Assembly (NCBI RefSeq): GCF_017745095.1
Contig: NZ_JAGHZZ010000004.1
Coordinates: 124,001 to 188,000, forward strand
Direction: 5' to 3'
From: Sporocytophaga sp.
GTDB lineage: Bacteria > Bacteroidota > Bacteroidia > Cytophagales > Cytophagaceae
DNA: 64,000 nt
Both the position numbers and the translations under genes were made by a program. Below the pieces are notes generated by a model. It was given only the letters and a program-made list of their open reading frames with translations, ran no database searches and was not told the origin of the DNA. Shown piece after piece: positions 2,673-64,000 of this stretch (the first letter of the stretch is position 1; each line of letters starts with the position of its first letter).

Positions 2673-4250
2673 ATGGGATGCAGTTCTTGTAGTTCCGGAG
2701 GCGGGTGCAGCACTGGTGGTTGCGGAAAAAGCGGAGGATGCTCGTCTGGCGGATGTAATAAAATGAATACATTCGATTGGCTCGGAAACATGGAGCCTAC
2801 CAGAGTACATTCATTTAAAATAGCAGAAATACGTTTTAAGGGCGGAAGAAAAGAATATTTCAGAAATGTCAATGACATTGAACTTAATAATGGAGATCCG
2901 GTCATAGTTAATGTTCCAAATGGGCATCACTTAGGCTTTGTCTCTTTGCAGGGTGAGTTGGTACGTCTTCAGATGAAAAAGAAGAACATTGTAGAAGATG
3001 ATCAGATTCGAGACATCTATCGTATCGCCAATGCAAAAGATATTGAGAAATTTGACAATACTCAAAAAAGGGAGCTTCCTACACTTTTCCGTACGCGTGA
3101 AATAATCAATGAGCTGAAGCTTGATATGAAGCTGACAGATGTTGAATACCAGGCAGATAATACTAAAGCTACTTTTTATTATTCAGCAGACGATAGAGTA
3201 GATTTTCGCGAACTGATTAAATGCCTTGCCACTGAGTTTAAAATCAGGGTAGAAATGAGGCAGATCAGTCTTAGACAGGAAGCTGGACGTCTTGGAGGAA
3301 TAGGGTCCTGTGGAAGAGAGCTTTGCTGCTCGACTTGGCTTTCTGATTTCAAAAGTGTTTCCACTTCTGCAGCCAGATATCAGAATCTTTCTTTGAATCC
3401 AAGCAAACTTTCCGGTCAATGCGGGAGACTGAAGTGTTGTCTCAATTATGAGCTTGATACTTATGTCGATGCATTAAAAGATATTCCTACTGTCGAAGAT
3501 CCGCTTCTTACAGAAAGAGGTGAAGCATATTTGCAAAAAACGGATATCTTCAAGAAAATCATGTGGTTCGGATACAGGGAGGATACCACTTGGTACCCAC
3601 TATCTGTTGAAAGGGTCAATGCAATTCTTGAGTTAAATAAAAAAGGAGTAACTCCAGTTTCTCTGGATGAAAATGATACTTCAATTCAGGATGAGGAGAA
3701 AAAGGCGGAAGACGATCTGAACGAGCTGAAGCGTCTGGATGAGAAATACAAGAAGAAGAAAAAGAAGAAGAAGAAATCAAAAGGTCCCAATACCGGTAAT
3801 GTTCAAGGAAGTGGTGAGGGGGATACTTCTGTTTCCAGCCAGGAAAGGAAGACGCAGCAGGAAAGAAGGCCTCAGGCACAGAAACAACATCAACATCCAA
3901 ACAGAGAAAATAGAGAGAAGAGCAGTCATCCTAATAGAGAGAAAGGACCCTCTCCTCAAAATAACCAAAGGGAAAAGCAGCCACAGAAAGAGCATCAGAA
4001 TGCTCCTCGGGAAAATCAGAATAGAGGTGGCCAAAATGTTCCTAGAGAAAATCAGAATAAAGGTGGTCAAAATGTTCAGAGGGATAATCAGAACAGACCG
4101 AAGGGGAACCCTAATCAACAGCATAAAGGAAATCCTAACCAACCTAAAGGTAACCCCAATCAACCAAAGGGAGGTAATCCTAATAAACAGGGATCTGATC
4201 AAAAAAATACAAATAATAATCCGAATTCTACGCCGGACAAACAAATATGA
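2673..4250 (+). CDS. ricT: RicT/PSP1-domain protein with Cys-rich N-terminus and disordered tail
   Basis: PSP1 C-terminal-domain protein (RicT/YaaT family). In Firmicutes RicT works with RicA and RicF in an Fe-S complex that affects RNA maturation; the role in Bacteroidota is not settled. The first 28 residues hold six cysteines (3, 6, 12, 17, 23, 28) in Gly/Ser spacing. The conserved PSP1 core covers about residues 40-300 and includes GSCGRELCCSTWL and SGQCGRLKCCLNYE. From about residue 345 the protein is a Lys tract followed by a low-complexity Asn/Gln/Pro/Gly/Arg tail with repeats such as RENQNRGGQNVP, so it is very probably disordered. The gene overlaps gldH by four bases (ATGA), showing translational coupling. 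Long ORFs in other frames over the tail are composition artefacts. Confidence 0.85.
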   Translation: MGCSSCSSGGGCSTGGCGKSGGCSSGGCNKMNTFDWLGNMEPTRVHSFKIAEIRFKGGRKEYFRNVNDIELNNGDPVIVNVPNGHHLGFVSLQGELVRLQMKKKNIVEDDQIRDIYRIANAKDIEKFDNTQKRELPTLFRTREIINELKLDMKLTDVEYQADNTKATFYYSADDRVDFRELIKCLATEFKIRVEMRQISLRQEAGRLGGIGSCGRELCCSTWLSDFKSVSTSAARYQNLSLNPSKLSGQCGRLKCCLNYELDTYVDALKDIPTVEDPLLTERGEAYLQKTDIFKKIMWFGYREDTTWYPLSVERVNAILELNKKGVTPVSLDENDTSIQDEEKKAEDDLNELKRLDEKYKKKKKKKKKSKGPNTGNVQGSGEGDTSVSSQERKTQQERRPQAQKQHQHPNRENREKSSHPNREKGPSPQNNQREKQPQKEHQNAPRENQNRGGQNVPRENQNKGGQNVQRDNQNRPKGNPNQQHKGNPNQPKGNPNQPKGGNPNKQGSDQKNTNNNPNSTPDKQI

Positions 4251-4726
4251 CGAAAAACAGAATTTCGACTATTCTAGTCCTGATTTTATTTATTTTAAGC
4301 TCTTGTGATAAATCGAGGATATACGAACAGAACTTCGATTTTCCTGATAATAAGTGGGAAGAGAATAAGGAGCTTACCTTTGATTTTGAGGTGCCGGATC
4401 ACAGACAAATGTACAATGTACTGTATAATGTGAGGTATTCGGTTGATTATCCATTTTATAATCTCTATGTAAAATACAATTTGTTGGATTCTGCAGGCAG
4501 AGAGATAAATCAAAAGTTGCAAGGAATGGATCTGATGGATTCGAAAACCGGAAAGCCTTTTGGTAAAGGAGTAAGTGGCGTTTATGATTACAGGATATTA
4601 GCATTACCTGGATACATTTTTCCTTATTCAGGAAAATACAAAATGAAAGTTAGGCAATATATGAGGCAAAATCCTCTTCCTCATATTTATTCATTTGGAT
4701 TAAGATTAGAAAAAGCCGGAGCTTAG
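4247..4726 (+). CDS. gldH: Gliding motility lipoprotein GldH
   Basis: GldH is a lipoprotein needed for gliding in Flavobacterium and related gliders, acting at the cell envelope with the T9SS/gliding machinery. The protein is 159 residues. A lipoprotein signal peptide ends in FILSSC (Cys20). The body contains the family-typical EQNFDFPDNKW start and a C-terminal MRQNPLPHIYSFGLRLEK. Its position directly behind, and overlapping, the ricT-type gene is the usual Bacteroidota arrangement and supports the call. Confidence 0.88.
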   Translation: MTKNRISTILVLILFILSSCDKSRIYEQNFDFPDNKWEENKELTFDFEVPDHRQMYNVLYNVRYSVDYPFYNLYVKYNLLDSAGREINQKLQGMDLMDSKTGKPFGKGVSGVYDYRILALPGYIFPYSGKYKMKVRQYMRQNPLPHIYSFGLRLEKAGA

Positions 4727-6492: not shown

Positions 6493-6834
6493 TTAGTGAA
6501 ATGCGTCCTCAAAGTGGACGATTTCCTGTCCGGTAATTGCAACAATATCAAATCTGATTGGGCCTTTCCAATTATTTTCAAAAATAAAGTTTTCAGCGGC
6601 CGTCATCACCAGAGAAGCTTTCCTTTCGGAGACTGAAGCTTCAGGAAAGCCAAATTTTGAATTCTTTCTTTTTTTAACTTCTACAAAGACCAGCAGATTT
6701 TCTTTGCGGACAATAATATCGATCTCAAGTTTTTTATATCGGTAATTCCGAAAGAGTACAGAATAGCCTTTGGTCTCCAGAAATCTCCCTGCCATGTCCT
6801 CTCCGTTTTTCCCTGAAATTATATTGTTTCCCAT
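6493..6834 (-). CDS. YraN family (UPF0102) putative endonuclease-fold protein
   Basis: 113 residues, normal for the YraN/UPF0102 family, which has a restriction-endonuclease-like fold of unclear physiological role. Family signatures are the N-terminal GEDMAGRFLETKGYSVLFRNYR, here interrupted by no gap; the catalytic-type core EIDIIVRKENLLVFVEVKKR (Asp and the E-V-K triad); and the C-terminal RFDIVAI. It is transcribed towards the end of the preceding gene. The start is the only good ATG. Confidence 0.85.
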   Translation of the reverse strand: MGNNIISGKNGEDMAGRFLETKGYSVLFRNYRYKKLEIDIIVRKENLLVFVEVKKRKNSKFGFPEASVSERKASLVMTAAENFIFENNWKGPIRFDIVAITGQEIVHFEDAFH

Positions 6835-42839: not shown

Positions 42840-43157
42840 TTATTTCATTTTGTCTTTTAATTCATCAAATTTTTCATTCAGAAAGAGATTATATAAACTC
42901 TCTACTTCTGTCCAATCTTTTGCTTTGAAATGGATTTCTTCCTCTGATTCTCGATCAAGTATTGCAATTAATCCTAAATCTTTACTTACTTCCAATATAA
43001 ACTCATCTTCATCAACAATTCCTACCCAGAAGGCTCCATGTTCATCATCCATCTTCTGAACTTCATCAATCGCAATCCTTACATCTTCAATAGTTACTCC
43101 ATCAACTGAATCACTCCAGGCTCTCTGTAGGTATGTTTCTTTAAATTCCATTAGCAT
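42840..43157 (-). CDS. Small acidic protein behind the macro-domain gene
   Basis: 105 residues (103 if the second ATG is used), strongly acidic with many Asp/Glu, for example VQKMDDEHG and LDRESEEEIHF. No signal peptide. It ends WTEVESLYNLFLNEKFDELK. It starts 23 bases after the macro-domain gene and is probably in its operon. The composition recalls immunity proteins (Imm1-like) or nucleic-acid mimics, but I do not recognise a family. Confidence 0.55.
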   Translation of the reverse strand: MLMEFKETYLQRAWSDSVDGVTIEDVRIAIDEVQKMDDEHGAFWVGIVDEDEFILEVSKDLGLIAILDRESEEEIHFKAKDWTEVESLYNLFLNEKFDELKDKMK

Positions 43158-43180: not shown

Positions 43181-43654
43181 TTACTCAAAATCATAAACTA
43201 TCGTTTTAATTCCTCTTGAAGATAATTCCTCAAGTATTAAAGGCTCTATATCTTCCCACTTTCCACCGGCTAATCCACATCCTATTCTCGGCATATGTAC
43301 TGAAGAATTATTGATTAGTGCAAACTGACTTACTTTACTCAAGCATTCTTTAACTGCCTCATATCGTATAGGTGGAATTCCTTTTGAATTGGTTTTTATA
43401 TTTCTCTGTCCAATCATGTTTCCTATCCAAATATCATTCTCTACTTGTACAATTTGGACTTCACCCAATTCAAATTTATCGTTTGATTGATACCATTTTC
43501 TATATTCAGTTTCAGGTAATTTCCACCTTTTTGAAATTGCCATTACAAATCCTTTTCCCCATCCACCAATATCATTGCAAACATGAACTATAATTTTGTT
43601 TCCTGGCTCCACGGGTCTTGTCGCATCACCTTTTGTATATACTATTGTCTCCAT
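43181..43654 (-). CDS. Macro-domain protein (ADP-ribose-related hydrolase)
   Basis: 157-residue single macro domain. The N-terminus IVYTKGDATRPVEPGNKIIVH, then CNDIGGWGKGFVMAI and the GCGLAGGKWEDIEPLI loop, correspond to the ADP-ribose-binding elements of the Poa1/TARG1-like branch. Such enzymes remove ADP-ribose from macromolecules or dephosphorylate ADP-ribose-1''-phosphate. No ADP-ribosyl transferase toxin gene is seen next to it. Confidence 0.82.
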   Translation of the reverse strand: METIVYTKGDATRPVEPGNKIIVHVCNDIGGWGKGFVMAISKRWKLPETEYRKWYQSNDKFELGEVQIVQVENDIWIGNMIGQRNIKTNSKGIPPIRYEAVKECLSKVSQFALINNSSVHMPRIGCGLAGGKWEDIEPLILEELSSRGIKTIVYDFE

Positions 43655-43746
43655 TTACATGATTATTAAATACCAATATGCTTAAGTATACAGATATGAA
43701 AGTTAGAGTGAAAATGCTGAAAGATACAATCGCTATTCTCGGAAAT

Positions 43747-43764
43747 CCTCGTTTGGAAACGAGG
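43747..43764. repeat. REP-like palindrome CCTCGTTT/AAACGAGG
   Basis: 8-bp perfect arms around GG, 92 bases from the start of the macro-domain gene and about 90 bases from the stop of the HNH gene. It looks like a REP-type extragenic palindrome. Only one copy occurs in this window. Confidence 0.55.
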
Positions 43765-43855
43765 ACTATAGGGAACTGCAGCCAGAGAAAATAACCAAAG
43801 ACCCGCTACCACTGAACCGCCTGCTCTTTTTTATATAATGTTAGATGTAGCGTTT

Positions 43856-44608
43856 TTATTTTTCAAGTTTTAGAGCCGTTTTATTCAAGTCTATTTCAAG
43901 TTTAGATAATTCTACATCCCATAAACCTAACAATATCAATTTACCTTTTAATGTTTCAAATTCGGTATCAGTTAGAATTACTGTTGCGGAAGTTGCTGAA
44001 TAAATAGCACTTGGAAGTCCTTCTTTCAGAAGGTCTTTTGTGCCATTGACTATTCTATTCCTTCTTCGTGTGTTTGTCTGAACTCCACTAAGATAATCAT
44101 CAGTCAATTCGTTTAAATGCTCCAATTTTTCTTGAATAGCATTACCAATTTCAAACCTTTTCTTTACAAGCCTGTCTTGGTCGTTTAGTTTTAAAACAGA
44201 AACAGTCAATTTACCAAAATCGTCAGAACCTTTAATTCTATAACGCCAATATTTTAAATGATTTTTTGGTTCAATTTTACTTGGGTCAATTATCGGTTCT
44301 AATTTTGTATCGTGGTCGTTTTTTGTGCCATTACATTTTTTACAAGAAGGTAATAGATTTTCCCATTCTAAAACTTCATCTTTATATGCATCTTTATGAT
44401 GAAAGTGTTCAACTTCTAAATATTTACTTTCTTCATTAATATTGGTTTCACAATAGCAACATTTGTCATTAGAAAAACCTAAGAGCCCTTTTTTAATGAA
44501 TTCAATATTCCAAACTGACTTTCCTGTTGATTTAAATTCATCTGTCAAAGCAACCTGCAATTCAGCTGTAAGTTCGATAGGTTTTGGAGTTCTGTCTAGC
44601 TTAATCAT
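43856..44608 (-). CDS. HNH endonuclease, PtuB-like (Septu system nuclease)
   Basis: 250 residues. HNH core with zinc pairs CCYC (Cys50, Cys53) and CKKC (Cys89, Cys92), catalytic His68 in LEVEHFHH and Asn84 in EWENLLPSC, matching the TIGR02646 type found as PtuB. The C-terminal 140 residues are helical. Its start overlaps the ATPase gene end by eight bases, so the two are made together. In Septu systems the nuclease is held by the ATPase and degrades nucleic acid after phage infection; activity here is inferred. Confidence 0.85.
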   Translation of the reverse strand: MIKLDRTPKPIELTAELQVALTDEFKSTGKSVWNIEFIKKGLLGFSNDKCCYCETNINEESKYLEVEHFHHKDAYKDEVLEWENLLPSCKKCNGTKNDHDTKLEPIIDPSKIEPKNHLKYWRYRIKGSDDFGKLTVSVLKLNDQDRLVKKRFEIGNAIQEKLEHLNELTDDYLSGVQTNTRRRNRIVNGTKDLLKEGLPSAIYSATSATVILTDTEFETLKGKLILLGLWDVELSKLEIDLNKTALKLEK

Positions 44609-45779
44609 TTGCTGAAATTCCTGTTAGTTGTATTTTTAATATTTTCTTTAACGAGTTTTCCGGATGCAACATCGCATCAAGAATTAAAAATTGCGTATTG
44701 GCGACATCAAAATCCTCGTTGTCAATAGCACTATTAAAGTTTGAAATAGCATCTAAGTAAGTAGACGTTCTTGTCTCTGTCATTCCCATTACATCAGTTA
44801 ATATTTCCTCAACTGTCCAGCCCTGACAACCATATTCTTGATTTATGATAGGGTTTAATTTCACTTCATTTGTCTCATCAAGCGTGAGAGGAATAATTTC
44901 CTTGGCATTTGCAACTTGAATAATATGTGGACTATGTGTTGATGTGAAAACTTGTGCATTTGGTAATATTATTTTTAACGCTTCGTATATTTTGGCTTGC
45001 CATTCGGGATGTAGATGCAAATCAATTTCATCTATAAATACAATTCCATCAAAATCTTTAGTGAATTTACTTGGGTTTTTATACCTAAATTCAACCTCTT
45101 TTATTAAACCAATTAGCACGGCCATACAAGACTTATAACCTGATGATAAATACTCAAAATAAATTTCTCCATTTGGAGTATTCAGCATAATATCATTTGA
45201 ATTAGGATTGACTTTACTAAATGAAATTTGTGGGTTTAATATATTAAAACACTCTTTTGCAAGATTTATATTTTTAATTTGTTGTTCATCCAAATGGTTT
45301 TGGTGTGCTGACCATAAATGTCTATTTACAAACCAATTCTTTAAATCATTTGGCAATGAACCTTGCATTGTCTCTCTTGCAAAAGTTCCAATATCTTTTA
45401 GTGGGTCAGTATTTAGTGATTTTAGTTCTCGATAAGGAATATCTCGATGAGTTTTGAATACTATTATATCATTTGAGTTCTGATAAAATCCTTGTGACTG
45501 ATAATGCTTTTCATTTGGGTGAAAAGAAGTAATATCAAAAGACTTATTTTGAGCAGAACCATTAATCAAAACATCAATGCTCCAGTTACCTTTTTCTTTT
45601 CCTGCGGTTCTTTTAATTGATGTGTCATTTACTCCAAATGATTGAGCCAAGCAGTCTAAAATTGTAGTTTTTCCAATTCCATTCTGTCCACAAATTATAT
45701 TGAAATGGCCATCGAAAGTCAGTTCCAAATTTTTAATTGGCCCTATTCCTTTGATTTTTATTTTAGTTATTTTCAGCAT
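44601..45779 (-). CDS. SMC/ABC-type AAA ATPase, PtuA-like (Septu system)
   Basis: 392 residues, one split ABC-type ATPase. Walker A GQNGIGKTT (31-39), signature-like LSSGYKS (211-217), Walker B IVFIDEID with Asp250-Glu251, and H-loop STHSPHII with His282. There is no TOPRIM domain, so it is not an OLD nuclease; the nuclease function sits in the overlapping HNH gene. No reverse transcriptase gene is present nearby, which argues against a retron-linked version. Confidence 0.87.
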   Translation of the reverse strand: MLKITKIKIKGIGPIKNLELTFDGHFNIICGQNGIGKTTILDCLAQSFGVNDTSIKRTAGKEKGNWSIDVLINGSAQNKSFDITSFHPNEKHYQSQGFYQNSNDIIVFKTHRDIPYRELKSLNTDPLKDIGTFARETMQGSLPNDLKNWFVNRHLWSAHQNHLDEQQIKNINLAKECFNILNPQISFSKVNPNSNDIMLNTPNGEIYFEYLSSGYKSCMAVLIGLIKEVEFRYKNPSKFTKDFDGIVFIDEIDLHLHPEWQAKIYEALKIILPNAQVFTSTHSPHIIQVANAKEIIPLTLDETNEVKLNPIINQEYGCQGWTVEEILTDVMGMTETRTSTYLDAISNFNSAIDNEDFDVANTQFLILDAMLHPENSLKKILKIQLTGISAND

Positions 45780-45839
45780 TTTTATTTGTTATTGCTATGA
45801 GTTTGTGATGTCGGTTCGGAAAAGTTACACATACAATTG

Positions 45840-45863
45840 AATATACGCCATATGGCGTATATT
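45840..45863. promoter_or_regulatory. 24-bp perfect palindrome upstream of ptuA-like gene
   Basis: AATATACGCCAT is followed immediately by its exact reverse complement ATGGCGTATATT. It lies 60 bases upstream of the ATPase start and 77 bases beyond the XRE stop. There is no T tract in the direction of the XRE transcript, so it is not a normal terminator for that gene. It is best read as an operator, probably for a dimeric HTH protein such as the adjacent XRE regulator. Confidence 0.6.
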
Positions 45864-45940
45864 TTTCTTTTGCCACTAAAAAACAACTTTTTAATTTTAA
45901 TCTGAAGAGAAAACTTTCCTCATTCAAATTCCTTCAACCA

Positions 45941-46177
45941 TTATTTTTTTAATCCATATTCAAAGTCAAAAAAATCTGAAATAGGTGTATTTAAGCCTCT
46001 GGATATTTTTAAAAGTGTTGTTAGAGTTATGTTGGATCCGGTTGATGTAAGCTTTACAAGGTTTCCCTTATCTATACCTGTTTTGTGGGCCAGATCTTGA
46101 AAAGACATTTCTTGTTCCTGCCTCAATTGATTTATTCGTTCTCCAAGTTTCTTTAGAAATTCTTCGTCTGTTAACAT
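45941..46177 (-). CDS. XRE family HTH transcriptional regulator
   Basis: 78 residues from ATG 46177, which starts the HTH fold properly (MLTDEEFLKKLGERINQLR). The longer reading from 46273 would overlap the divergent gene and adds an unlikely leader. Helix-turn-helix: MSFQDLAHKTGIDKGNLVKL, followed by TLTTLLKISRGLNTPISDFF. The usual E-x-G after the recognition helix is replaced by TSTGS. It is the first gene of the strand that carries the Septu-like pair, so it probably controls that pair, itself or both. Confidence 0.85.
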   Translation of the reverse strand: MLTDEEFLKKLGERINQLRQEQEMSFQDLAHKTGIDKGNLVKLTSTGSNITLTTLLKISRGLNTPISDFFDFEYGLKK

Positions 46178-46226: not shown

Positions 46227-46267
46227 GGTGGTTTATATGCCACCGATTGTTTTTTGCTATATATTTG
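46227..46267 (+). promoter_or_regulatory. Divergent control region: inverted repeat and -7 element
   Basis: GGTGG (46227-46231) and CCACC (46240-46244) form an inverted repeat around TTTATATG. A perfect TATATTTG lies at 46260-46267, 33 bases before the 111-residue gene. No clear -33 partner is visible. The region is shared with the divergent XRE gene. Confidence 0.45.
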
Positions 46268-46300: not shown

Positions 46301-46636
46301 ATGAAACAACCTCAACTCTTTCCCAAAAATCTCAACCTCGTTAAGCTTCCTGCTAAAGAAGAACTGACCATATTTTTAATTGCAGAAGATATAAGAAACC
46401 GAAAGATATCGAAGCGACTGGAGAAGGAGGGCTTTGATACTGCTTATGCCGGTGACTTAAGTAAGCTTGTCTTCGGCTTGCTGGGTATTGAGAACAGAAC
46501 AGACGGACTCTATGCATTTTATTTTAATCAGCTGGATGAGCATGCTATAGAGCTTGACCTGTCAGAGAATACAGAGCTTCATGAAAAAGCATTTTATATT
46601 TACAGAGAGCTGCTTGTGTGGAAATATGAAGTCTGA
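46301..46636 (+). CDS. 111-residue protein of unrecognised family (intact copy)
   Basis: 111 residues from ATG 46301; the in-frame ATG at 46247 would extend through the promoter region. No signal peptide or membrane segment; mixed alpha/beta look, with the N-terminal LFPKNLNLVKLPAKEELTIF, the basic IRNRKISKRLEKEGF and a C-terminal half of GLYAFYFNQLDEHAIELDL and HEKAFYIYRELLVW. I do not recognise a domain. Two decayed relatives occur in this window (32502-32626 and 48684-48835). It is divergent from the XRE regulator and ends at a REP palindrome. Confidence 0.65.
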   Translation: MKQPQLFPKNLNLVKLPAKEELTIFLIAEDIRNRKISKRLEKEGFDTAYAGDLSKLVFGLLGIENRTDGLYAFYFNQLDEHAIELDLSENTELHEKAFYIYRELLVWKYEV

Positions 46637-46640
46637 TAAA

Positions 46641-46668
46641 CTGGTTCAAGCGAGGACGCTTGAACCAG
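46641..46668. repeat. Perfect REP-type palindrome, probable bidirectional terminator
   Basis: Arms CTGGTTCAAGCG and CGCTTGAACCAG (12 bp, perfect) flank AGGA. It sits between two convergent genes ending at 46636 and 46686, which suggests a transcription-stopping role, but there is no T tract. The left arm is identical to the truncated element at 32055-32066. Confidence 0.7.
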
Positions 46669-51397: not shown

Positions 51398-54300
51398 ATG
51401 AAAATTTTTAAAAGAATAGAGGCATTAGTTATTATTTCACTTGTTTGTGTATTTAACTCTGTAGCCCAAACTATAGCCGTTACTGCTCCGAATGGAGGGG
51501 AGAGTGCGTATGTAGGAAAAGTGTTTGCTGTCAAGTGGACAAGCTCAGGATTGTCGTCAAGCTTTGTAAAGCTTGAGTACTCTTCTAATAATGGAGCACA
51601 ATGGAACCTCATTGAATCTGGCGTGAACAACACAGGTACTTATAACTGGACGGTACCTTCCAATGTATCTTCACAATGCTTGCTAAGAGTGAGCGATTAT
51701 GGAGATGCCTCAGTCAATGATGCCAGCAATGCCGTCTTTTCCATCAAACAACCTTTTATAACAATCACATCGCCGAATGGAGGAGAAAACCTGACCGGTT
51801 GTGCAACACAAACCATCACCTGGACACAGGGCGGTGTGCGTGATTATGTAAACCTCTATTATTCCTATGATGGTGGGAACAACTGGATTTATCTCGGAGA
51901 AGATTATATAGGCGATAACAGCAATACCTTTTCATGGGCTGTACCTTCAATTGCTTCTGATAAATTCAGAGTTAAGGTAAGCGGCTACTATGAAGCAGAT
52001 ATTAAAGATTCAAGTGATGGAAATTTTAATGTAGTGCCTGCGGCTAATAAGCTTCAAATCACATCTCCGAATGGTGGAGAATCTTTTTCCGCAAGTTCTT
52101 TTCAGCAGATCAGCTGGACGAAAGTAGGTACGGTAGGGAATGTTTCTTTGAAATATTCTGTAAACAAAGGTGCGACTTGGGATTGGGTAAAAGATAAAGA
52201 TGGTAACAATGCAAATAATATTGCCAATACAGGTTCTTTTAACTGGTTGGTACCATCTGTGGCAGCATCAGGAAACTGTCTGATACAGATTTATGAATAT
52301 AACAAAACTTGTAATATTGATTATAGTGATACCTATTTTACTATAGATAACAGTCCTTCGATATCAGTAACCTATCCTTTCGGTGGAGAGAAGATATATT
52401 CGGGCAGAAACTTTACATTATACTGGAGTTCTTCCAATTTACCAACAACCTATGTAAAACTTGAATACTCTTTGAACAACGGAGGAACCTGGCAGACCAT
52501 AACCAACTCAACTTATAATTATGGCAACTATGGCTGGGCTATTCCGGAAGGGCTGAATTCTACAGAGTGTTTATTTAAAGTGAGTTCTGCGGATAATGCA
52601 GCTATTTATGATATTAGCAATCAAACTTTTACCATTGCTCCTCAGGTGATTCAGGTGACTGCTCCTAATGGAGGTGAGACTATTCAAGGTTGCAGTACCT
52701 ATAATATAACCTGGAATCAGGAAGGTGTACAAAACTATGTGAATCTGTACTATTCGATCAATGATGGAAAGGACTGGATTTATATTGGTGAAGATTATAT
52801 CGCAGATAATTCCAATTCATACAATTGGACTGTACCATCAATTCCTTCCACTGCGATAAGAGTTAAGGTAAGTGGCTATTATAATGCAAACGTAAAAGAC
52901 TCCAGTGATGCAGCATTTTCAGTTACGCAGGCTCCGAATTATCTTACGCTATTGTCTCCTAATTCAGGAGAGACTTTTCCTGCAAGTTCTATTCAAACGA
53001 TCACCTGGACTTCCACTGGTACAGTTGGTAATGTATCTTTGAGGTATTCTCTTGATGGTGGAGCTAATTGGGACTGGGTAAAAAATGCAGCAGGTACTAA
53101 TGCGAATAATATTGCAAACACAGGCTCATACGAGTGGATGCTTCCTTCAGATAAGCAATCATCTAAATGTTTAATTCAGATTTATGAATACAATAAAAGC
53201 TGTAATATAGATTATAGCGATAATTTTTTCTCTGTTAATAATAATTCTGTAATTACAGTTGCCTTGCCAAATGGAGGTGAAAAGGTGTATACAGGAAAAA
53301 GTTATTCATTAACCTGGAGCTCTTCAAATTTACCAACTACTTATGTAAAGCTTGCCTATTCTGTTAATAATGGCGCTACTTGGCAAACAATTGTCAATTC
53401 AACATATAACTATGGTAACTATAGCTGGGCAGTTCCGGAATCATTAAATTCAACACAATCATTAATTAAAGTTAGTGCTGTAGCAGATTCAACAATTTTT
53501 GATGTCAGCAATCAGGTCTTTACTTTTGCTCCACAGGTAATTCAGGTTACAGCACCCAATGGCGGTGAAAGTATTGCGGGGTGCAGCACTTACACAATCA
53601 AATGGAATCAGGAGGGTGTACAGAATTATGTGAATCTGTATTACTCTATCAATGACGGAAAAGACTGGATTTATATTGGAGAAGATTATATAGCTGATAA
53701 TACCAATTCATACAACTGGACAGTTCCTTCTCTTCCTTCAACCGCTATAAGAGTTAAAGTAAGTGGTTATTATAATGCCAATGTAAAGGATTCCAGTGAC
53801 GCAGCATTTGCTGTGACGCAGGGATCAAATTACCTTACATTAGCATCTCCAAATGGGGGAGAAGTTTGGTCTTCAAGTTCAATACAAACAATCAACTGGA
53901 CTTCGACAGGGACAGTTGGTAATGTGTCTTTGAGGTATTCTGTGGATGGAGGTGCCAACTGGGACTGGGTAAAAAATGCAGCTGGTAACAATGCAAACAA
54001 TATAGTAAACAGTGGTTCTTTCGAGTGGTTACTTCCTGCAAACCTGGTGAAGTCAAAATGTCTTGTCCAGATTTATGAATACAATAAAACTTGTAACATA
54101 GATTATAGTGATAATTTCTTTTCAATTAATAACAATCCGATTATCACCGTGGCAACGCCTAATGGAGGCGAAAAGGTATTTGCAGAAAGAGCTTATACCA
54201 TTAACTGGAGTTCATCTAACTTACCTACTACTTATGTTAAGTTGGAGTACTCTATTAATAATGGTGATACCTGGCAGGTCATATCTAATTCTGCTTATAA

Positions 54301-57300
54301 TTACGGAAACTACAGCTGGACTGTGCCTGCTTTCCTGAATTCTACGCAATGCCTTATCAAGATAAGCGCAGCTGCTGATGCTTCTATTTTTGATATTAGC
54401 AATAATGTATTTACCATTACTCCTCAGGTAATTCAGATTACTCAACCAAATGGTGGTGAAAGTATTCCGGGTTGTGGTACCTATACAATCAAATGGAATC
54501 AGGAGGGGGTGCAGAGTTATGTAAATCTGTATTACTCTGTCAATGGAGGAAATGACTGGATCTATATTGGTGAAGATTATATAGATGATAATTCCAATTC
54601 TTATAACTGGACTGTGCCATCAATAGCTTCCGGAGATATAAGAGTTAAAGTTTCCGGATATTATAATGCAAATGTGAAAGACTCCAGCGATGCCAATTTT
54701 GCTGTTACACAGAGTGGTACGAAGCTGTCAGTGATCTCACCAGCAGGAGGAGAGAATTGGGGCTCTGGCTCTGTTCAGACTATCAATTGGACTTCGGAGG
54801 GAACTGTTGGAAACGTTTCTTTGAGATACTCACTGGATGGTGGTGCCAATTGGGATTGGATTAAGAATAAAGATGGAGCAAATGCCAATAATATCTCAAA
54901 CAATGGTACTTACGAATGGTTGCTTCCTACCAATAAGGTCTCATCAAAAGGATTGGTTCAGGTTTATGAGTATAACAAAACTTGTAATGTAGATTATAAT
55001 AATGCCTATTTCTCAGTAAACAATGATCCTGCAATAACAGTAACAACTCCAAATGGAGGCGAGAAATACTACGCAGGCCAGACCTATACCATTTACTGGG
55101 CGTCATCAAACCTTCCTTCGAATTATGTAAGACTTGAATATTCTGATAATAACGGAACAACATGGCAGCTGATAAATAACTATACTTACAACTATGGGAA
55201 TTATAGCTGGAAAGTTCCGAATATTTCTGCTCCGAAAGCTCTTATAAAAGTTACTTCAATGCAAAGTGCTACAGTTGCAAATTCAATATCAGATGTAAGC
55301 AATGGTAGTTTTTCAATTTCTTACCCTGTAGTTAAAGTATTGACCCCAAATACAGGAACAGAGATATGGAAAGTTGGAGAGAATAAGACGATATCATGGA
55401 GTGTTGACGGTCTTGCTGCAAGTGCGAATGTAAAAATAGATTTCTCTGTTAATAACGGACTTACCTATTCACCTATAGTGGGAACAACAGCAAATAGTGG
55501 CTCATATATCTGGACAATCCCAAGTAATGCAGTGAACTCTTCAAAATGTTTTGTAAAAGTTACTTCTCTGGATTTCTCGGCAAGCTATGATTCCAACGAT
55601 GTTGCCTTTTCTATTATTAAACCTGTCGTGGGTATTACTGTTCCGAATGATGGACAAGTATGGTATGTAGGTGAATCAAAATCTATACAGTGGAGCAGCC
55701 TTGGAGCTTCGGAAAATGTTAAGCTGGAGTATTCTGTTAATGGTGGCACGAGCTGGAATAATGTTATAGCTTCAGCTCCTAACACAGGCTTCTATTATTG
55801 GAGTATACCATATTCTGTAACGCCATCGACAAATTGTTATATTAAAGTTTCGGATGTCTTAGATCCTTCTAATAAAGACACAAGTGATGTTGCCTTTACT
55901 ATTGCAAAACCTGCTATCATATTGAATGTGCCTAATGGGGGAGAGCAGTGGTATGTCGGACAAACGAAAACTATTTCCTGGACAAATAAAGGATTTGCTT
56001 CTCCAAATGTGAAGATCGAATATTCTGACGATAAAGGTCTTACTTGGAAGTTAATTGCTGCATCAATAACAAACACTGGTTCTTACAACTGGGCAATACC
56101 TTCTTCAATAAAAACCTCATCGGAATATCTTGTTAAGGTTTCTGATTTTACGGATGCTTCTGTACAGGATCAGACCAATGAAGTCTTTGCTATCTTCAAA
56201 CCGAGAGTAACTCTTAATGTGCCTGTAGGTGGCGAAACGTGGTATCAGGGACAGACAAAAAATATTACCTGGAGCAACATCGGTGTGGTTCCGGGAAATA
56301 TTAAAATAGAATATTTTGATGGCGATCTTTGGAAAACATTGGTTTCCTCTATTGCTAATACAGGTTCTTATACATGGAATATTCCTGTAAGTATAAATCC
56401 TTCAGCAAACTATCTGGTAAGACTTAGTAGTACTGCTGACGCTTCTATCAGAGACTCCAGTAAAACTGCTTTCAGAATTGCCAAACCAACAATATACATT
56501 ACTTCTCCTGTGGGAGGAGAAACGTGGTATTTAGGTCAGACAAAGAAAATTACATGGGCTTCAGCCGGATTGATTTCAAATACTATAAAAATTGAATACT
56601 CTCCGGATAATGGAATTACCTGGAAAGCTATCAATGTTGCTGCTAATAATTCAGGTTCTTATAATTGGACAATACCAGTTTCATTTCCTGTGTCAAATCA
56701 ATACTTGATAAAACTGACAGATGGTGGAAATTCTTCTGTAACAGCAGAAAGCAGTAATGCATTCACTATTAAAGAAAGTAGGAAAGGAGATCATTTCAGC
56801 AATCCGATTGTTATAAACTCATTCCCTTATTCTGTAAGAGATACTACAGATCTGTATTCTGACAGTTTCACAGGGATGACTAATCAGCCATCAAATGATG
56901 TGTTTTATAAATTTAAAGTTCCAGCATGTATAGATTCTTTCAGTATTTCAACAGCAGGTTCAAATTTTGATACCTATCTGCATCTGATTGATTCTGCGCA
57001 GACGTTGGTGGAATTTAATAATAACTATAATGGTATTTATGCAGGTATAAATACGAAAGCATTAACTCCTGGTAAGACTTATTATCTGGTGGCGGAAGGA
57101 AATGCTTCTGCTTCAGGTGTATTTAATCTATCTGTTAATACTTTCAATAATGCCCCTAAAATTTCTGTTGTAGGTAAGATCACAACGGTTTGTAAAGGCG
57201 ATTTAGTACAGCTAAGCTCAAGTGCTGCGAGCACTTATAAATGGTCGACGGGAGCTACAACGGCAAAGATCTCTGTTACTCCGACAGATACTACTGTGTA

Positions 57301-60300
57301 TAAGCTTACAGCAACTACAGCGAGGGGCTGTACATATAGCGACAGTGTTAAAATTAATATCATACCAGTTGTTGCTCCGGGACAAGTGAGTAACATGCTT
57401 CCAGCAGATTCAACATTAAATCTTGGTCAGCCGATTGAAGTATCATGGGCTCCGGCTCAGTATGCATCTACTTATGATATATATGTATGGAAGACAGATC
57501 AGGCCGTTCCGACTACTCCAAGATATTCCAATATTGGTCAGATCAACTATTCTATAAGTGGCCTGGATTATGGAGTATCCTATAAATGGAAAATTACAGG
57601 TAAAAATTCTTGTTTCCGCACAGAAGGACCTGTGCAAAGTTTTTCTCTGAGAAAATTACCAGACCTGCAGGTAAGTTCTGTTAAAACTCCTTTAGCTATT
57701 TACAGTGGTCAACCGCTGACAGTAACGTGGGAGGTTAAAAACAAAGGATTAGGAAGTACAGAATCAAAAGTATGGAGAGACGGTGTTTATTTGTCTGCTG
57801 ATACTTTGTTTGATGCATCACAGGATATACTGATCGGTAGTATTAATAACCTGAGCTATCTTGCAGAAGGGGTAAGCTATAGTCAGACTGCCTCATTTAC
57901 TATTCCGCAAACTACAGTAGGAGATTATTTTGTATTTGTAAAAGCGGATGTGAATAATGCTATTATCGAGTCCAATGAAAATAACAACACGAAGTTTGAT
58001 ACAACGTCAGGAATCCTGAATGTATCAATACCTCCCAAGCCGGATTTGATTGTTAGTTCGTTAGGAACACCTATTGCTACGTTCTCGGGAAATAAGATCA
58101 ATGTTACCTATAAAGTAACCAATACTGCAATTGCTAATGCTTCAGGTAATACACTTGCAACACATTATCAGTATTATGATTATTCGCTGAAGAAGTATTG
58201 CTACTTCGAAGAGCATTATTGGATGGATGCTATTTATATTTCTCAGGATTCTGTCTTTAATCCTGCAAGATCGAAGTTTCTGGCTGATGTAAGTGTTAAA
58301 TTAAGATCACCGAAGTACCAAGGTGGCTTCATTTGTGATAATACATTAAACTGGTATAATATTCCTGATTATTTACCTAAAGACAGTTCTTATACAAGAA
58401 CGGTTCAGGTGACAGTGCCTCATTCTTATTCGGGTAAATATTATATCTATTTACTTTCTGACGTGCTGAATAATGTTGATGAGCTCTCAAATGTAAATAA
58501 CTCTCAGAGAAGCAATGTTATAAATGTAACAATGACTCCTCCGGCAAATCTTGCAGTTGAAAAAGTAAATGTTCCTGCTTCCGGATTTTCGGGAAAACCT
58601 GTAGCGGTTAATTGGGAAGTGATCAATGGTGGCGCAAATGCACCAGTAGAAAATGTTTGGCGTGACAAAGTCTTCCTGTCTAAACTGGATACTTTTAATT
58701 TAAAAGAATCAATCGATGTAGGGTCGGTAGATAAATCCAATGGCTCTACATTGAAGCCTGATTCTAGCTATCGTTCAGCACTTACTTTCAATCTTCCTGA
58801 TGGCATTTCCGGACAATATTATATTTATGTTTACTCGGATTATAATAAGGAAGTATTTGAGTATATCTATGAAAATGACAATATAAAGCGCTCTGCTCCA
58901 ATCAATATAAACTTGTCTCCATATGCAGACCTTCAAATTCAGAATATTTCAGTAAAAGATACGATAAGAGCAAATACTGATGCGGAGGTTTCATGGACTG
59001 TTTCAAATAAAGGATTGGCTCAGGCATCAGGTTCATGGGTTGATAGAATCTTTATATCTTCTTATCCTACATGGTCTGCAGGTAATGCAACGCAATTAAC
59101 TTCTGTAACTCGGGGCCTTGCTCTTGATGCAGGCTCTAATTATTCCGAAAAAGCATCAGTTAGAATTCCTAGAGAACTTAAAGAGGGAATCTATTATTTG
59201 TATGTCTATACGGACATTACAGATAGAATTTATGAATATACAAATGAAGGAAACAATGTTGCGAAAAGTGATTCATTCGGTACTAAAACCAAACTGTATA
59301 TTCTACCTCAGGTTGTTGCAGATCTGAAAGTTACAAATCTTAGTGCTCCTGGATCTGCAGAGTCAGGAAAGAAAATACCTGTAAGTTGGAATGTTAAAAA
59401 TATTGGTAACGCAGCGACCAATGTAGATTTCTGGAATGACTTATTGTTTATATCAAAAGACACAGTTCTGGATAATTATGATGCTCAGTTAACTTATAAA
59501 TCTTATAGTGGTGGCTTAGCTGCTGGTTTTGATTACCTGTTTAGTGAAATGGTAACAATCCCTAATGGTTATTCAGGTAAATATTATTTACTTGTTTCTT
59601 CTGATCATAATCTTCGTGTAACAAATGACACTGTTAAGGCAAATAATAAAGGAAGGTTCGAAATAAATATTGCACTTACTCCTCCTCCTGATCTTATTGT
59701 AAAAACTATAGATGCATCTGCTACACTTCTTGCAGGACAGGAATTGGATATCAGTTATAAAGTAGAAAACTCCGGACCGGGTGCAACTGTTGAAAATGCA
59801 TGGACAGATCAGATATACCTTTCTAATACTAGAGATCTCAGCCGTACTTATTATATAGTTGGTAGCTTTACAAGGAATGGAGTTCTTGCCGCTGGTGGAG
59901 CTTACAATGCTACAGCAAAGATCAAAGTACCAAACTATCTTTCCGGTAATTATTATCTGATTGTAAAAACAGATTATCAGAACAGGGTATTTGAGCATAC
60001 TAATGAAGAGAATAACCTTGGTGATGCGGTGGTTACAATTGTTGTTCCTCAACCAAGTGATCTAGTACTTAATAGATTGAATATTCCTTCTTCTACTGAG
60101 CCTGGTAAAAATGTAGAGGTAACTTACTCGGTGAAAAATATCGGTAGCAATCCTGCTATCGGTAATCTGAGAGATCTGTTGTTCTTCTCAAAAGACCAGC
60201 AGCTGGATCAGGCGAATGATCCTCTGTTCGGAACCAAAGACGGTTATATTCAATTAAACCCTGGTGATTCTGTTTCGGGAACCGTTTCTTCGAAAATGCC

Positions 60301-63300
60301 AGGTTTACTTGAAGGTAATTATTATGGTATTGGGGTGACGAATGCACTTAATACCATTGTAGAAACAGATCTAAATAATAATACAAGAGTTTCGGCAAAT
60401 CAGTTGAATGTATCTATCAAGGAACTTGTGCTGGATGTGCCGCAGACGACTCCACTTGAAAGAGGTGATCTTCTTTACTACAAAATAAATGTACCTGCAG
60501 ACAAAGATCTTCTAATTACCCTAAAGAGTAATAGAAGCAATGGCTCTAATGAAATATATGCAGCCTATAACAGAGTACCTTCACTAAATGATTTTGATTA
60601 TATTTTTGAAAATCCGAATAGTGTGAATCAACAGGTACTAGTGCCGACAACTAAAGGCGGAGCATATTATCTTTTGGTAAAAACACCTACGAACTTCAAT
60701 AATCTTCAGAATGTAACAATCCTTGCCAAAGCATTACCTTTCAGTATTATTGAAGTTAATTCGGATACAGTAGGGCAGGGTGTTGTCACAACCAAGTTGA
60801 ATGGTGCAGGATTTAAAAAGCAAACACAATTTATTCTTGTAAGTAAAACCAATGTGCCTGTTGATACTGCAGAAATAAGAACTTATATGAGCAGTATGCA
60901 GGTGGATGTTCGCTGGGATCTTACCAAAGTTCCATTTGGTACTTATAACATTAAGGCTGTCAATCCTAATGAAACGTTCACTCTTATCAATGGTCTGACT
61001 GTTGAAAAGGCAACAGGCTTCTTGGTAGATTTCAATGAAATTGCGCCCGATCTTGTAAGGCTTGGTGGAAAGGCTCAATACACATTCTATCTGCAGAATA
61101 TCGGTAACGTTGATATTCCATTTATAAATGCGGATCTCTCGGTTCCTGCTGCTACTAATATTGTGAGCTTTACAGCAAGTAAGCAAATAAGAAAACGCAG
61201 TAGCTATACAAGTCAGAGTAAATCATTTGAAGATTTCTATCTGGTAGATTCTTACAAAGTAATTCCTTTACTGGGTAAGGATGTTAGACCAGGAGAGGTG
61301 CTTGCAATGAACCTGATTGTAAGTCATTTTACATCTCAGTTCTTCCCGGTAAGGACAAGAGCGGTGGGATATAGTGCAGAAAGATATATTTCTCAACAAG
61401 TAAATTCAGCTGAAACAACAAGAAGAACAATTCTTCAGAATTCTTCAGCTCCTGCGAACTGGAGAAATTTTGCAGTTGACAGCACTGCTTACATGGATTC
61501 AGTCTTAGCTGTTTATTATTCTGAAAAAATCTTCTCACCAGCAGAATTTGCAAAAGCAAATGTACAGTGCAGTAACTGCGGTTCTCAGCCTCCGGTATTG
61601 GTGAATGGAAACTTTACTTTTAGTCCTGGTAATAGCCCAGGTACTTTAAATGGTTCTAATGTGATCTTTGGTGCTGGTCAAGACTATCTGTGGGAAATAA
61701 ACAAATATGCAGGAGTCGCTGGTGCTAATCCAGGCTGGGATCTAATTAAAGCATCAGGTTCAATTCAGATTACAGCAACGCCATCGAATCCATTTGTCAT
61801 CAGGATCGCATCTTTAGATTTTGCTAATAATCCTAATGTGCTTTCCGGATGGTACCCTGCTGTTGATACCAGCTGGACAATTGCTGTTGCAGCAAATGGT
61901 ATTTCTGGTTTTGCTGCGAATAAGTTTTCTATAGATATAAGTCGTTTTGCAACTTATAACAATCTGTATGGCGGTTTCTTCTATCTGAGATTGACTGGAA
62001 CAGATACATTAAAATTATGCTTTAGCGCTTACAAACCAGGAGTAGGACAACCTGGTGTTCCGGGAGCTCCGGGAGGTAGCATAGGTCAGCCTGGAAGCCC
62101 AGGTGGTTCAGGTGGTCCTGGAAACGGAACAACTCCTGCTGGCCCAGGTGGCCCAGGTGGTCCTGGTGGGCCTGGTGCTCCAGGCGGCCCAGGTGGCCCT
62201 GGTGGTCCTGGCGGTCCTGGAAATAGCCCTGGTGGTCCCGGTGGTCCAGGTGGACCTGGTGGTCCTGGAAATGGTCCTGGTGGTCCTGGTTCTCCTGGTG
62301 GCCCTGGCGGTCCTGGTGGTCCTGGCGGGCCGAGTGGTCCTGGTGGTCCCGGAGGTCCTGGTGGCCCAGGAGGTCCCGGTGGTCCAAGCGGTCCGAGTGG
62401 TCCTGGCCCAGGTGGCCCTGGAGGTCCGGGTGGTCCCGGAGGTCCTGGTCCTGGCGGAAATGGCCCAAGCGGCCCTGGTGGTCCAAGCGGGCCAAGTGGT
62501 CCGGATGGTCCTGGTCCAGGTGGCCCTGGTCCTGGCGGTCCTGGAGGACAGCCAAGATGTGGTAATAACGGAACTGTAGGTACAGCAATTTGTAATACAT
62601 TCTTTACAATAACCGGTTGTGCTATAACAGTAGGAAGTTGTGCAGAAAGCTTATTTGAGTCTGTAGCACTTACACCAGCTTGGGGAGTTGCTAACTGTTC
62701 TATGGGAGCATTTGGTTGTGGATATGCTATTGGTGGATTGATGACAGATCCTAAAGCGCCTCCGGGATGGGGTGTTGGTCCTGGTGATGTTGGATGTGTG
62801 CCAGGTGGATTTAATATATTAGGTGCTGCAACTGTATTGAACTGTCTTGCTCAAAGGATTATCTGTAATCAGATTGTAGCATCTTGTGATCCGAATGACA
62901 TCATAGGTCCAAAAGGTTATGGTGAAGGTAAATATGTTTCAAGAAGCGAGGTATTACCATATACAATCCGTTATGAAAATGATCCTGAAGCTGCTACTGC
63001 TCCTGCTCAAAAAGTTGAAATAAGACAGGTGCTGGATAGCGACTTGAATCCTTTAACATTCAGAGTTAAAGACTTCGGATTTGCAGATTATGTATTTACA
63101 GTGGACGGAAACGTGTCATCTTATTTTAATACAGTAGATCTACCGGATTCTTTAGGATATGATCTTGAAGTAACTGCGGGTATTGATATTGAGAAGAATG
63201 AGGCTTTTTGGATTTTACAGACAATAGATCCTAAAACAGGATTACCTCCTGTAGATCCATTGAAAGGTTTCCTTGCACTTAATGATTCTTCTGGTGTCGG

Positions 63301-64000
63301 AGAGGGATTTGTGAACTATACGATTAAAGCGAAGAACAATGCCATCACAGGTGATTCAATTCTGGCTCAGGCTGACATTGTATTTGATATTAATGCTCCG
63401 ATCATAACTCCGGAGATATTTAATATCATTGATGCAGAGCCTCCGGTATCTAAGGTAAAAGTACTGGGCTCGAATAGTGATTCAATATCAGTAAAGGCTT
63501 CAATAGCGGATGACCTTAAAGGCAGCGGAGCGAAATCTTTTGATCTGTATGTTGCAGTTGGGAATGCTGACTACAAGCTTGTTGCTTCTGATATTCCAAA
63601 TGACACAATATTCAAGATTCCGGCAAAAGAAGGTGAAGCTTATTGTTTGTATGCTGTATCTAAGGATAACGTGAATAATAAAGAAGCCATAAAAATTCAG
63701 CCTGATACCTGCTTTATTTTCACTGGCGTAGTTACTGGAAATATGGATCCAAAAGTTGAAGGAACGTTTATACTTTATCCGAATCCTTCCGATGGCTTTA
63801 AGTTCAATGTCCTTATAACAGGACTTGAAATTCAGGAAACGGTTACTCTTGAAGTAATAGATGTTCTTGGAAGGTCAATGTTTGTTACAGACTTTAGAGA
63901 TGCTACTTATTTTATAGATTCTGAAGTTAAACTTTCAACCAAACTGGATCCGGGAATTTATTTCGTCAATTGTTATACGAAGAAAGGAAAGTCAGTTAAG
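51398..64000 (+). CDS. Giant T9SS-secreted multi-domain surface protein (3' end outside window)
   Basis: One open frame of 4201 codons without a stop, from ATG 51398 to the last base. Signal peptide about 1-26 (cut near NSVAQ). Eighteen Ig-like modules of about 95-100 residues follow (51476-56790), each starting like T-x-PNGGE and containing VKLEYS..NNG..W and a Y.W.VP ending; modules 1-13 run (ABC)4A. Next come a PPC-like domain (about 56800-57150), a CxGD-type Ig domain (57160-57365), an FN3-like domain, seven CARDB modules (57658-60420), a second PPC-like and an IPT-like segment, then a beta domain with CSNCG. A Gly-Gly-Pro tract lies at 62039-62551, a Cys-rich hydrophobic segment at about 62560-62890, a DUF7619-like domain at about 62890-63440, and a type A sorting domain from LYPNPSDGF (about 63771) on. 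The family end is expected within about ten codons. Probably an adhesin or matrix protein on the cell surface. Confidence 0.88.
52064..55320 (+). repeat. 891-bp in-frame tandem repeat inside the giant gene
   Basis: The C-type module start (Ser codon of S-P-N/A-x-GGE) recurs at 52064, 52955, 53846 and 54737, exactly 891 bp (297 codons) apart each time. The unit holds three Ig-like modules: C ([11 protein letters not shown]), A ([14 protein letters not shown]) and B ([13 protein letters not shown]). An incomplete first unit starts near 51476. Confidence 0.88.
62039..62551 (+). repeat. Gly-Gly-Pro (silk/collagen-like) low-complexity tract
   Basis: In the frame of the giant gene about 170 residues read mainly as GGP triplets with interruptions GNGP, GPSGPS, GAP and GPGP. 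Glycine is on every third position almost throughout and also on many others, so it is closer to polyglycine-II or flagelliform-silk composition than to true collagen G-X-Y. The DNA is GC-rich and uses varied Gly and Pro codons, so the protein repeat appears selected rather than produced only by DNA slippage. Spurious long ORFs exist on both strands here. Confidence 0.85.

Follow-up and report, generated by a model that had tools for sequence, protein, structure and literature searches.

A type I Septu operon in the genome of Sporocytophaga sp. probably entered its present location as an integron-type gene cassette, at an attI-like landing site that we call E1. The locus lies in a 64,000-nucleotide stretch of contig NZ_JAGHZZ010000004.1 (positions 124,001 to 188,000), hereafter the window, to which all coordinates refer unless another record is named. 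The initial annotation had described it as a Septu pair with its own XRE regulator.

The window holds an intact type I Septu pair on its minus strand, in which ptuA (45779-44601) encodes the 392-aa Septu ATPase and ptuB (44608-43856) the 250-aa HNH nuclease. Both genes are intact, and the overlap of 8 bp noted in the initial annotation was confirmed. A profile search against PtuA and PtuB models, which the annotation had proposed as a check, bore out the Septu identity over the full length of both proteins: PtuA matched PADLOC PtuA1 (PDLC00305; 536 bits; E, 1.3e-161) at residues 2 to 389 of 392, and PtuB matched PADLOC PtuB1 (PDLC00342; 325 bits; E, 9e-98) at residues 1 to 248 of 250. For PtuA, Pfam returned AAA/SMC-type ATPase matches only and no TOPRIM domain, in keeping with the TOPRIM-less ATPase first proposed. 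The assignment of the HNH protein to TIGR02646/PtuB held for the PtuB model but not for TIGR02646 (retron system putative HNH endonuclease), for which its 40.8 bits fall below the curated cutoff of 52.15. The closest solved structures to PtuA are the PtuA of 8ee4 (PDB; E, 1e-19) and retron-associated PtuA chains. Relative to the closest relative, dN/dS is 0.077 and 0.067 for the two Septu genes, and because both are thus under purifying selection we regard the pair as real. A type I-A (Ec78-like) retron was considered and rejected; PtuA scores 127 bits against NF041760 (cutoff, 500), and no reverse transcriptase was found among the scanned neighbors. Gene order, gene overlap, the ATPase without TOPRIM, and the HNH nuclease are all common to type I Septu and the window pair, which differs in its sub-cutoff TIGR02646 match and in its apparent position as a cassette behind an attI-like element. 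In the Septu family, the ATPase controls the HNH nuclease, and nucleic acid is destroyed on infection; by analogy, PtuAB would act in the same way.

Upstream of ptuAB on the same strand, as initially annotated, lies a gene for a 78-aa XRE regulator (HTH_26/HTH_3; Pfam HTH_26 E, 3e-10). Its open frame spans 46273-45941; relatives conserve the ATG at 46177 as the start codon, which places the gene at 46177-45941. The 160-bp gap between this gene and ptuA does contain the 24-bp perfect palindrome reported at the outset (AATATACGCCAT/ATGGCGTATATT; 45840-45863), which has zero mismatches and exceeds every other perfect palindrome of the window in length, the next being a 20-bp palindrome of A/T only. 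No Rfam RNA was detected in the locus. The palindrome forms the core of E1 (45835-45905, minus strand), an element of about 76 bp for which the consensus of aligned copies is TTTTAACAAAATTAAAAATTTGTTAGATTAGTGGTAAAAGAAAAATATACGCCATATGGCGTATATTCAAATGTTA. In a DNA search, the intergenic sequence recurred as three further partial copies in the same genome and as more copies across the genus, in which each genome has 3 to 11 copies of E1; in the sister species G001, contig C17 breaks off within E1. The copies are oriented toward the downstream gene, and homology among them breaks off abruptly at ATG^TT; the window copy loses homology at ...TTCAAAT^G, immediately ahead of the cassette. In three other genera of the family (G005, G007, and G013), the 3' part of E1 survives as ATACGC-palindrome-ACAAAC^GTTA. 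The palindrome is found at many loci without XRE, including loci in the sister species G002, and because it recurs in this way a role as an XRE-specific operator was rejected. More probably it forms the core of an integration site, and it is not peculiar to Septu as an operator would be.

Most E1 copies are followed immediately by GTT, with the start of a gene only tens of bases away, and roughly half of the sites lead into gene cassettes with integron signatures. In an integron cassette, the first bases are the reverse complement of the core at the cassette end. We therefore searched for the complement of the first 10 nt after each junction up to 2.6 kb downstream, allowing at most one mismatch. 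In a first set, 7 of 16 sites had a match in the region downstream of the site itself, compared with 18 of 240 mismatched pairings (permutation p, ~2e-4). A second set, collected later and including three other genera, gave 7 matches at 12 sites, four of them perfect (permutation p, ~4e-4). One site is common to both sets (1124k in one, 1118k in the other), and together 14 of 27 sites have complementary ends with at most one mismatch, their cassettes starting with G^TT; at about half of the E1 sites, no clear complementary end was found. The complementary ends across the E1 set, the G^TT junctions, and the dispersal of E1 itself are all read directly from the sequences. AttC-type hairpins lie behind the end cores and are complete in C8 of the same genome (GTATTGGC...GCCAATAC) and in C20 of G002. 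One E1 site in another sister species, G003, precedes a Pycsar pair (PycTM E, 5e-34; PycC E, 7e-102), with an end core matching at only 8 of 10 positions, so Septu is not the sole defense system behind such a head. At that locus (L111; G003:C2, 3418-5235) the Pycsar pair lies directly behind E1, and a different HTH gene lies upstream of E1.

The cassette carrying ptuA and ptuB is predicted to span 43782-45834 on the minus strand. The closest ptuAB is that of a Flavobacteriaceae MAG (L029; PtuA 87% identical), the one relative recovered by a single-sequence PtuA scan of genome contigs. There, the ptuAB unit starts with GTTAGCTGTA and ends directly behind ptuB with TACAGCTAAC, the two being complementary at 10 of 10 positions; an attC-like arm follows, and on both sides of the unit are 105-nt direct repeats with 91% identity, which appear to take the role of E1 there. 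Homology between the window and L029 covers 45805-43839, that is, the cassette alone, and neither XRE nor the palindrome is present upstream of the L029 pair. In the window, the cassette 3' core TACATCTAAC (43840-43850, minus strand; R''-like; reverse complement, GTTAGATGTA) aligns to ACAGCTAAC of L029. The attC-like 5' arm behind it (43782-43839, minus strand) resembles the arms behind ptuB of L029 and behind a DUF4062 gene of the sister species G001, and it is cut short before a second dispersed repeat, E2 (43723-43773). The start core at 45834 has decayed, reading GTATGTG where GTTAG.. would be expected and where GTTAGATG is predicted from the end core. The window copy fails the complementarity test, its best match having 2 mismatches and lying elsewhere, and the case for a ptuAB cassette rests on L029. 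Given the decayed start core and the arm cut before E2, the window cassette is probably fixed in place. The L029 repeat carries a hairpin and occurs at 4223-4327 and 6619-6723 of that locus, one copy before each of two cassettes, and a third, weaker copy (L124) precedes an ATPase gene; we take it to be the counterpart of E1 in another lineage, an E1-like head with a sequence of its own.

E1-type sites adjoin an integrase in sister lineages. In the sister genus G013, such a site lies ~100 bp behind a tyrosine recombinase of ~535 aa and before a cassette with ends complementary at 10 of 10 positions. The adjacency is seen at loci L139 and L153, where the E1-type site lies between the recombinase and the first cassette or gene. 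The best solved relative of the sister-genus recombinase is Vibrio IntI4 (2a3v; E, 2e-38); the protein exceeds the NF040815 cutoff and scores 219.9 bits against TIGR02249 (integron-integrase), for which the cutoff is 265. On an Acinetobacter plasmid, the order is a recombinase (64% identical over 235 aa), ATATACGCCATTTGGCGTATAGCCACTTG^TTATGTGCC, and tet(X3). When the 41-nt 3' part of E1 was used in a blind search of 72,556 plasmid records, 59 records matched, 49 of them from Acinetobacter, at weak E values, and several of these matches sit just behind the tet(X3)-linked recombinase. Two Chryseobacterium plasmids have the same order with another hairpin, one of them with 10/10 ends. The recombinases at these loci align closely in their catalytic segments. 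The xerD-tet(X3) structure of Acinetobacter plasmids (e.g., PMC8635130) shares the recombinase, the same palindrome, and a gene preceded by G^TTATGTGCC, but the papers describe a structure borne by ISCR2 and not an integron. Locus L153 (NZ_CP104735.1, 3632-4988) has the E1 core and G^TTATGTGCC between a related recombinase and tet(X3), with an attC-like half arm behind tet(X3).

No integrase was found beside the window E1 or the other copies in the genus. None of four genus genomes has an integron integrase over the TIGR02249 cutoff, the best stretch being XerC/XerD-like at 76 bits. The E1 copies of the genus are therefore heads without a visible integrase, and capture there would be past or would have been helped from outside.

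The idea of a regulated Septu, raised by the initial annotation and here taken to mean that XRE is dedicated to ptuAB and acts by binding the palindrome, fits the common strand and the palindrome within the intergenic gap, and parallels exist in the G003 Pycsar operon, which also has an (unrelated) HTH gene and E1 upstream, and in an HTH gene upstream of ptuAB on an Azospirillum plasmid. We nevertheless consider it very improbable. The Azospirillum HTH gene has no BLAST match to the window XRE, and XRE is absent not only from L029 but also from six further loci, namely, PtuB-family loci L064, L065, and L066 of the same class (G028, G162, and G212) and the plasmid ptuAB loci of C. difficile, Pantoea, and Klebsiella. 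The linkage of XRE to ptuAB in related genomes, on which the claim of an own regulator had been staked, is thus missing at all loci read, and the claim is not supported. The recurrence of E1 palindromes at many XRE-less loci, even in G002, which has no gene for this XRE, also argues against a dedicated operator. XRE instead has a conserved inverted repeat of its own, GGTGG-N8-CCACC at 46227-46244, located between XRE and a divergent gene (46301-46636, plus strand; 111 aa; conserved in the genus). This repeat, which both G001_C17a and G003_B have preserved and which coincides in part with a -10/-35-like pair at 46243-46215, would be a better candidate than the palindrome for the operator of XRE itself. 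Orthologues of XRE are 97% identical in G001 and G003, two of the three sister species (dN/dS, 0.03 to 0.05), and in the genus the gene precedes varied cargo: DUF4062, HEPN-like, and methyltransferase-like proteins as well as ptuAB. The third sister species, G002, has no XRE copy and has an empty site without XRE-E1-ptuAB, where the positions equivalent to 43773 and 46260 of the window directly adjoin; because XRE is missing from this site too, one larger insertion or deletion is possible. On the best reading of these comparisons, XRE belongs to the surroundings of the landing site and not to Septu, and an effect of XRE on ptuAB by read-through is possible.

Two other explanations concern E1 itself. 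It is short, palindromic, and dispersed, and another REP-like repeat, E2, is abundant in the genus, as would be expected if E1 were a small transposable repeat (a MITE, a REP, or an IS200/IS605 end) that inserted upstream by chance, its resemblance to a cassette site being incidental. This seems improbable given that the copies face the downstream gene, that homology stops at G^TT, that complementary ends exceed the permutation expectation in both sets of sites, and that an E1-type site stands behind the integrase in L139 and L153. The last of these observations also weighs against E1 being the attC of an ordinary cassette (of XRE or without a gene) that was copied many times, which would place ptuAB in a scattered integrase-less array (CALIN). 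The hairpin, the spacer, the G^TT at the end, and the cassettes behind are as in an attC, and this explanation is a little easier to entertain than a transposable repeat, although still unlikely. The fold does not fit: E1 forms two separate hairpins on either strand and lacks an R'' box that would pair with its 3' end (R''/R') to give one long imperfect hairpin, and it was rejected as an attC on this ground.

Under the favored explanation, in which E1 is an attI-like site, an IntI-like recombinase that recognizes E1 would insert circular cassettes at G^TT. XRE and E1 would form an older, genus-specific head behind which different cargo landed, and ptuAB would probably be transcribed from the head region. 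We infer that E1 is recombined by an integrase of the kind found in the sister lineages and that the window ptuAB arrived by that route. More tentatively, and with somewhat less than even confidence, we postulate an integron type of Bacteroidota with a hairpin attI behind an IntI-like recombinase; in this genus, the attI would have multiplied into scattered landing pads for defense and accessory cassettes (Septu and apparently Pycsar), and the type may first have mobilized tet(X). If true, a hairpin attI with scattered heads would explain the cassette-by-cassette spread of small defense systems in Bacteroidetes and would offer a mechanism for the unexplained linkage between the recombinase and tet(X). 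The sequence tag TATACGCCATWTGGCGTATA followed by G^TT could be used to find more captured genes.

Septu itself and integrons that carry defense genes are already known (PMC12409362). Defense genes in integron cassettes were reported by Darracq 2025, Kieffer 2025, and Getz 2025, as reviewed in PMC12409362; those systems share with ours defense genes in G^TT cassettes with complementary ends, whereas our genus has one or a few cassettes at scattered heads, no integrase found, and a Bacteroidota host. Insertion of cassettes into genomes at attG sites (Loot 2024, as cited in PMC12901181 and PMC11023631) likewise places cassettes outside an integron platform; judging from these citing accounts, it differs from the present case, in which a homologous, repeated element serves as the target and also stands beside an integrase in sister lineages. 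CALINs (IntegronFinder 2.0, PMC9024848) are similar in having cassettes without an integrase, but the heads described here are repeated, attI-like, and hairpin bearing. Complete integrons are reported to be nearly absent from Bacteroidetes (PMC9024848), and a literature phrase search, with subscription papers outside its reach, returned no earlier description of a Bacteroidetes integron. Within that scope, what looks new is the proposed attI type of Bacteroidota that bears a hairpin, together with its dispersal into multiple heads.

Other features flank the locus. E2 is a REP-like hairpin present in 12 to 19 copies per genome in the genus; its copies (CCTCGTTTGGAAACGAGG core) are often clustered at a spacing of ~0.5 to 1 kb in one orientation. 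Behind ptuB, 43181-43654 encodes a macro-domain protein with a DarG-like match (E, 2.5e-11), and homologues occur near XRE/E1 heads in G001 and G003. This gene was rejected as part of the Septu cassette, being beyond the cut attC arm and E2 and having a separately bounded homologue in G003. A 105-aa protein encoded at 42840-43157 has no match in Pfam, PADLOC, or NCBIfam. Behind the divergent gene lies a perfect inverted repeat (CTGGTTCAAGCG-N4-CGCTTGAACCAG; 46641-46668), of which G001 and G003 carry copies in the same position. The interval 51398-64000 is taken up by an open frame that is at least 4,201 aa long and continues beyond the window end.
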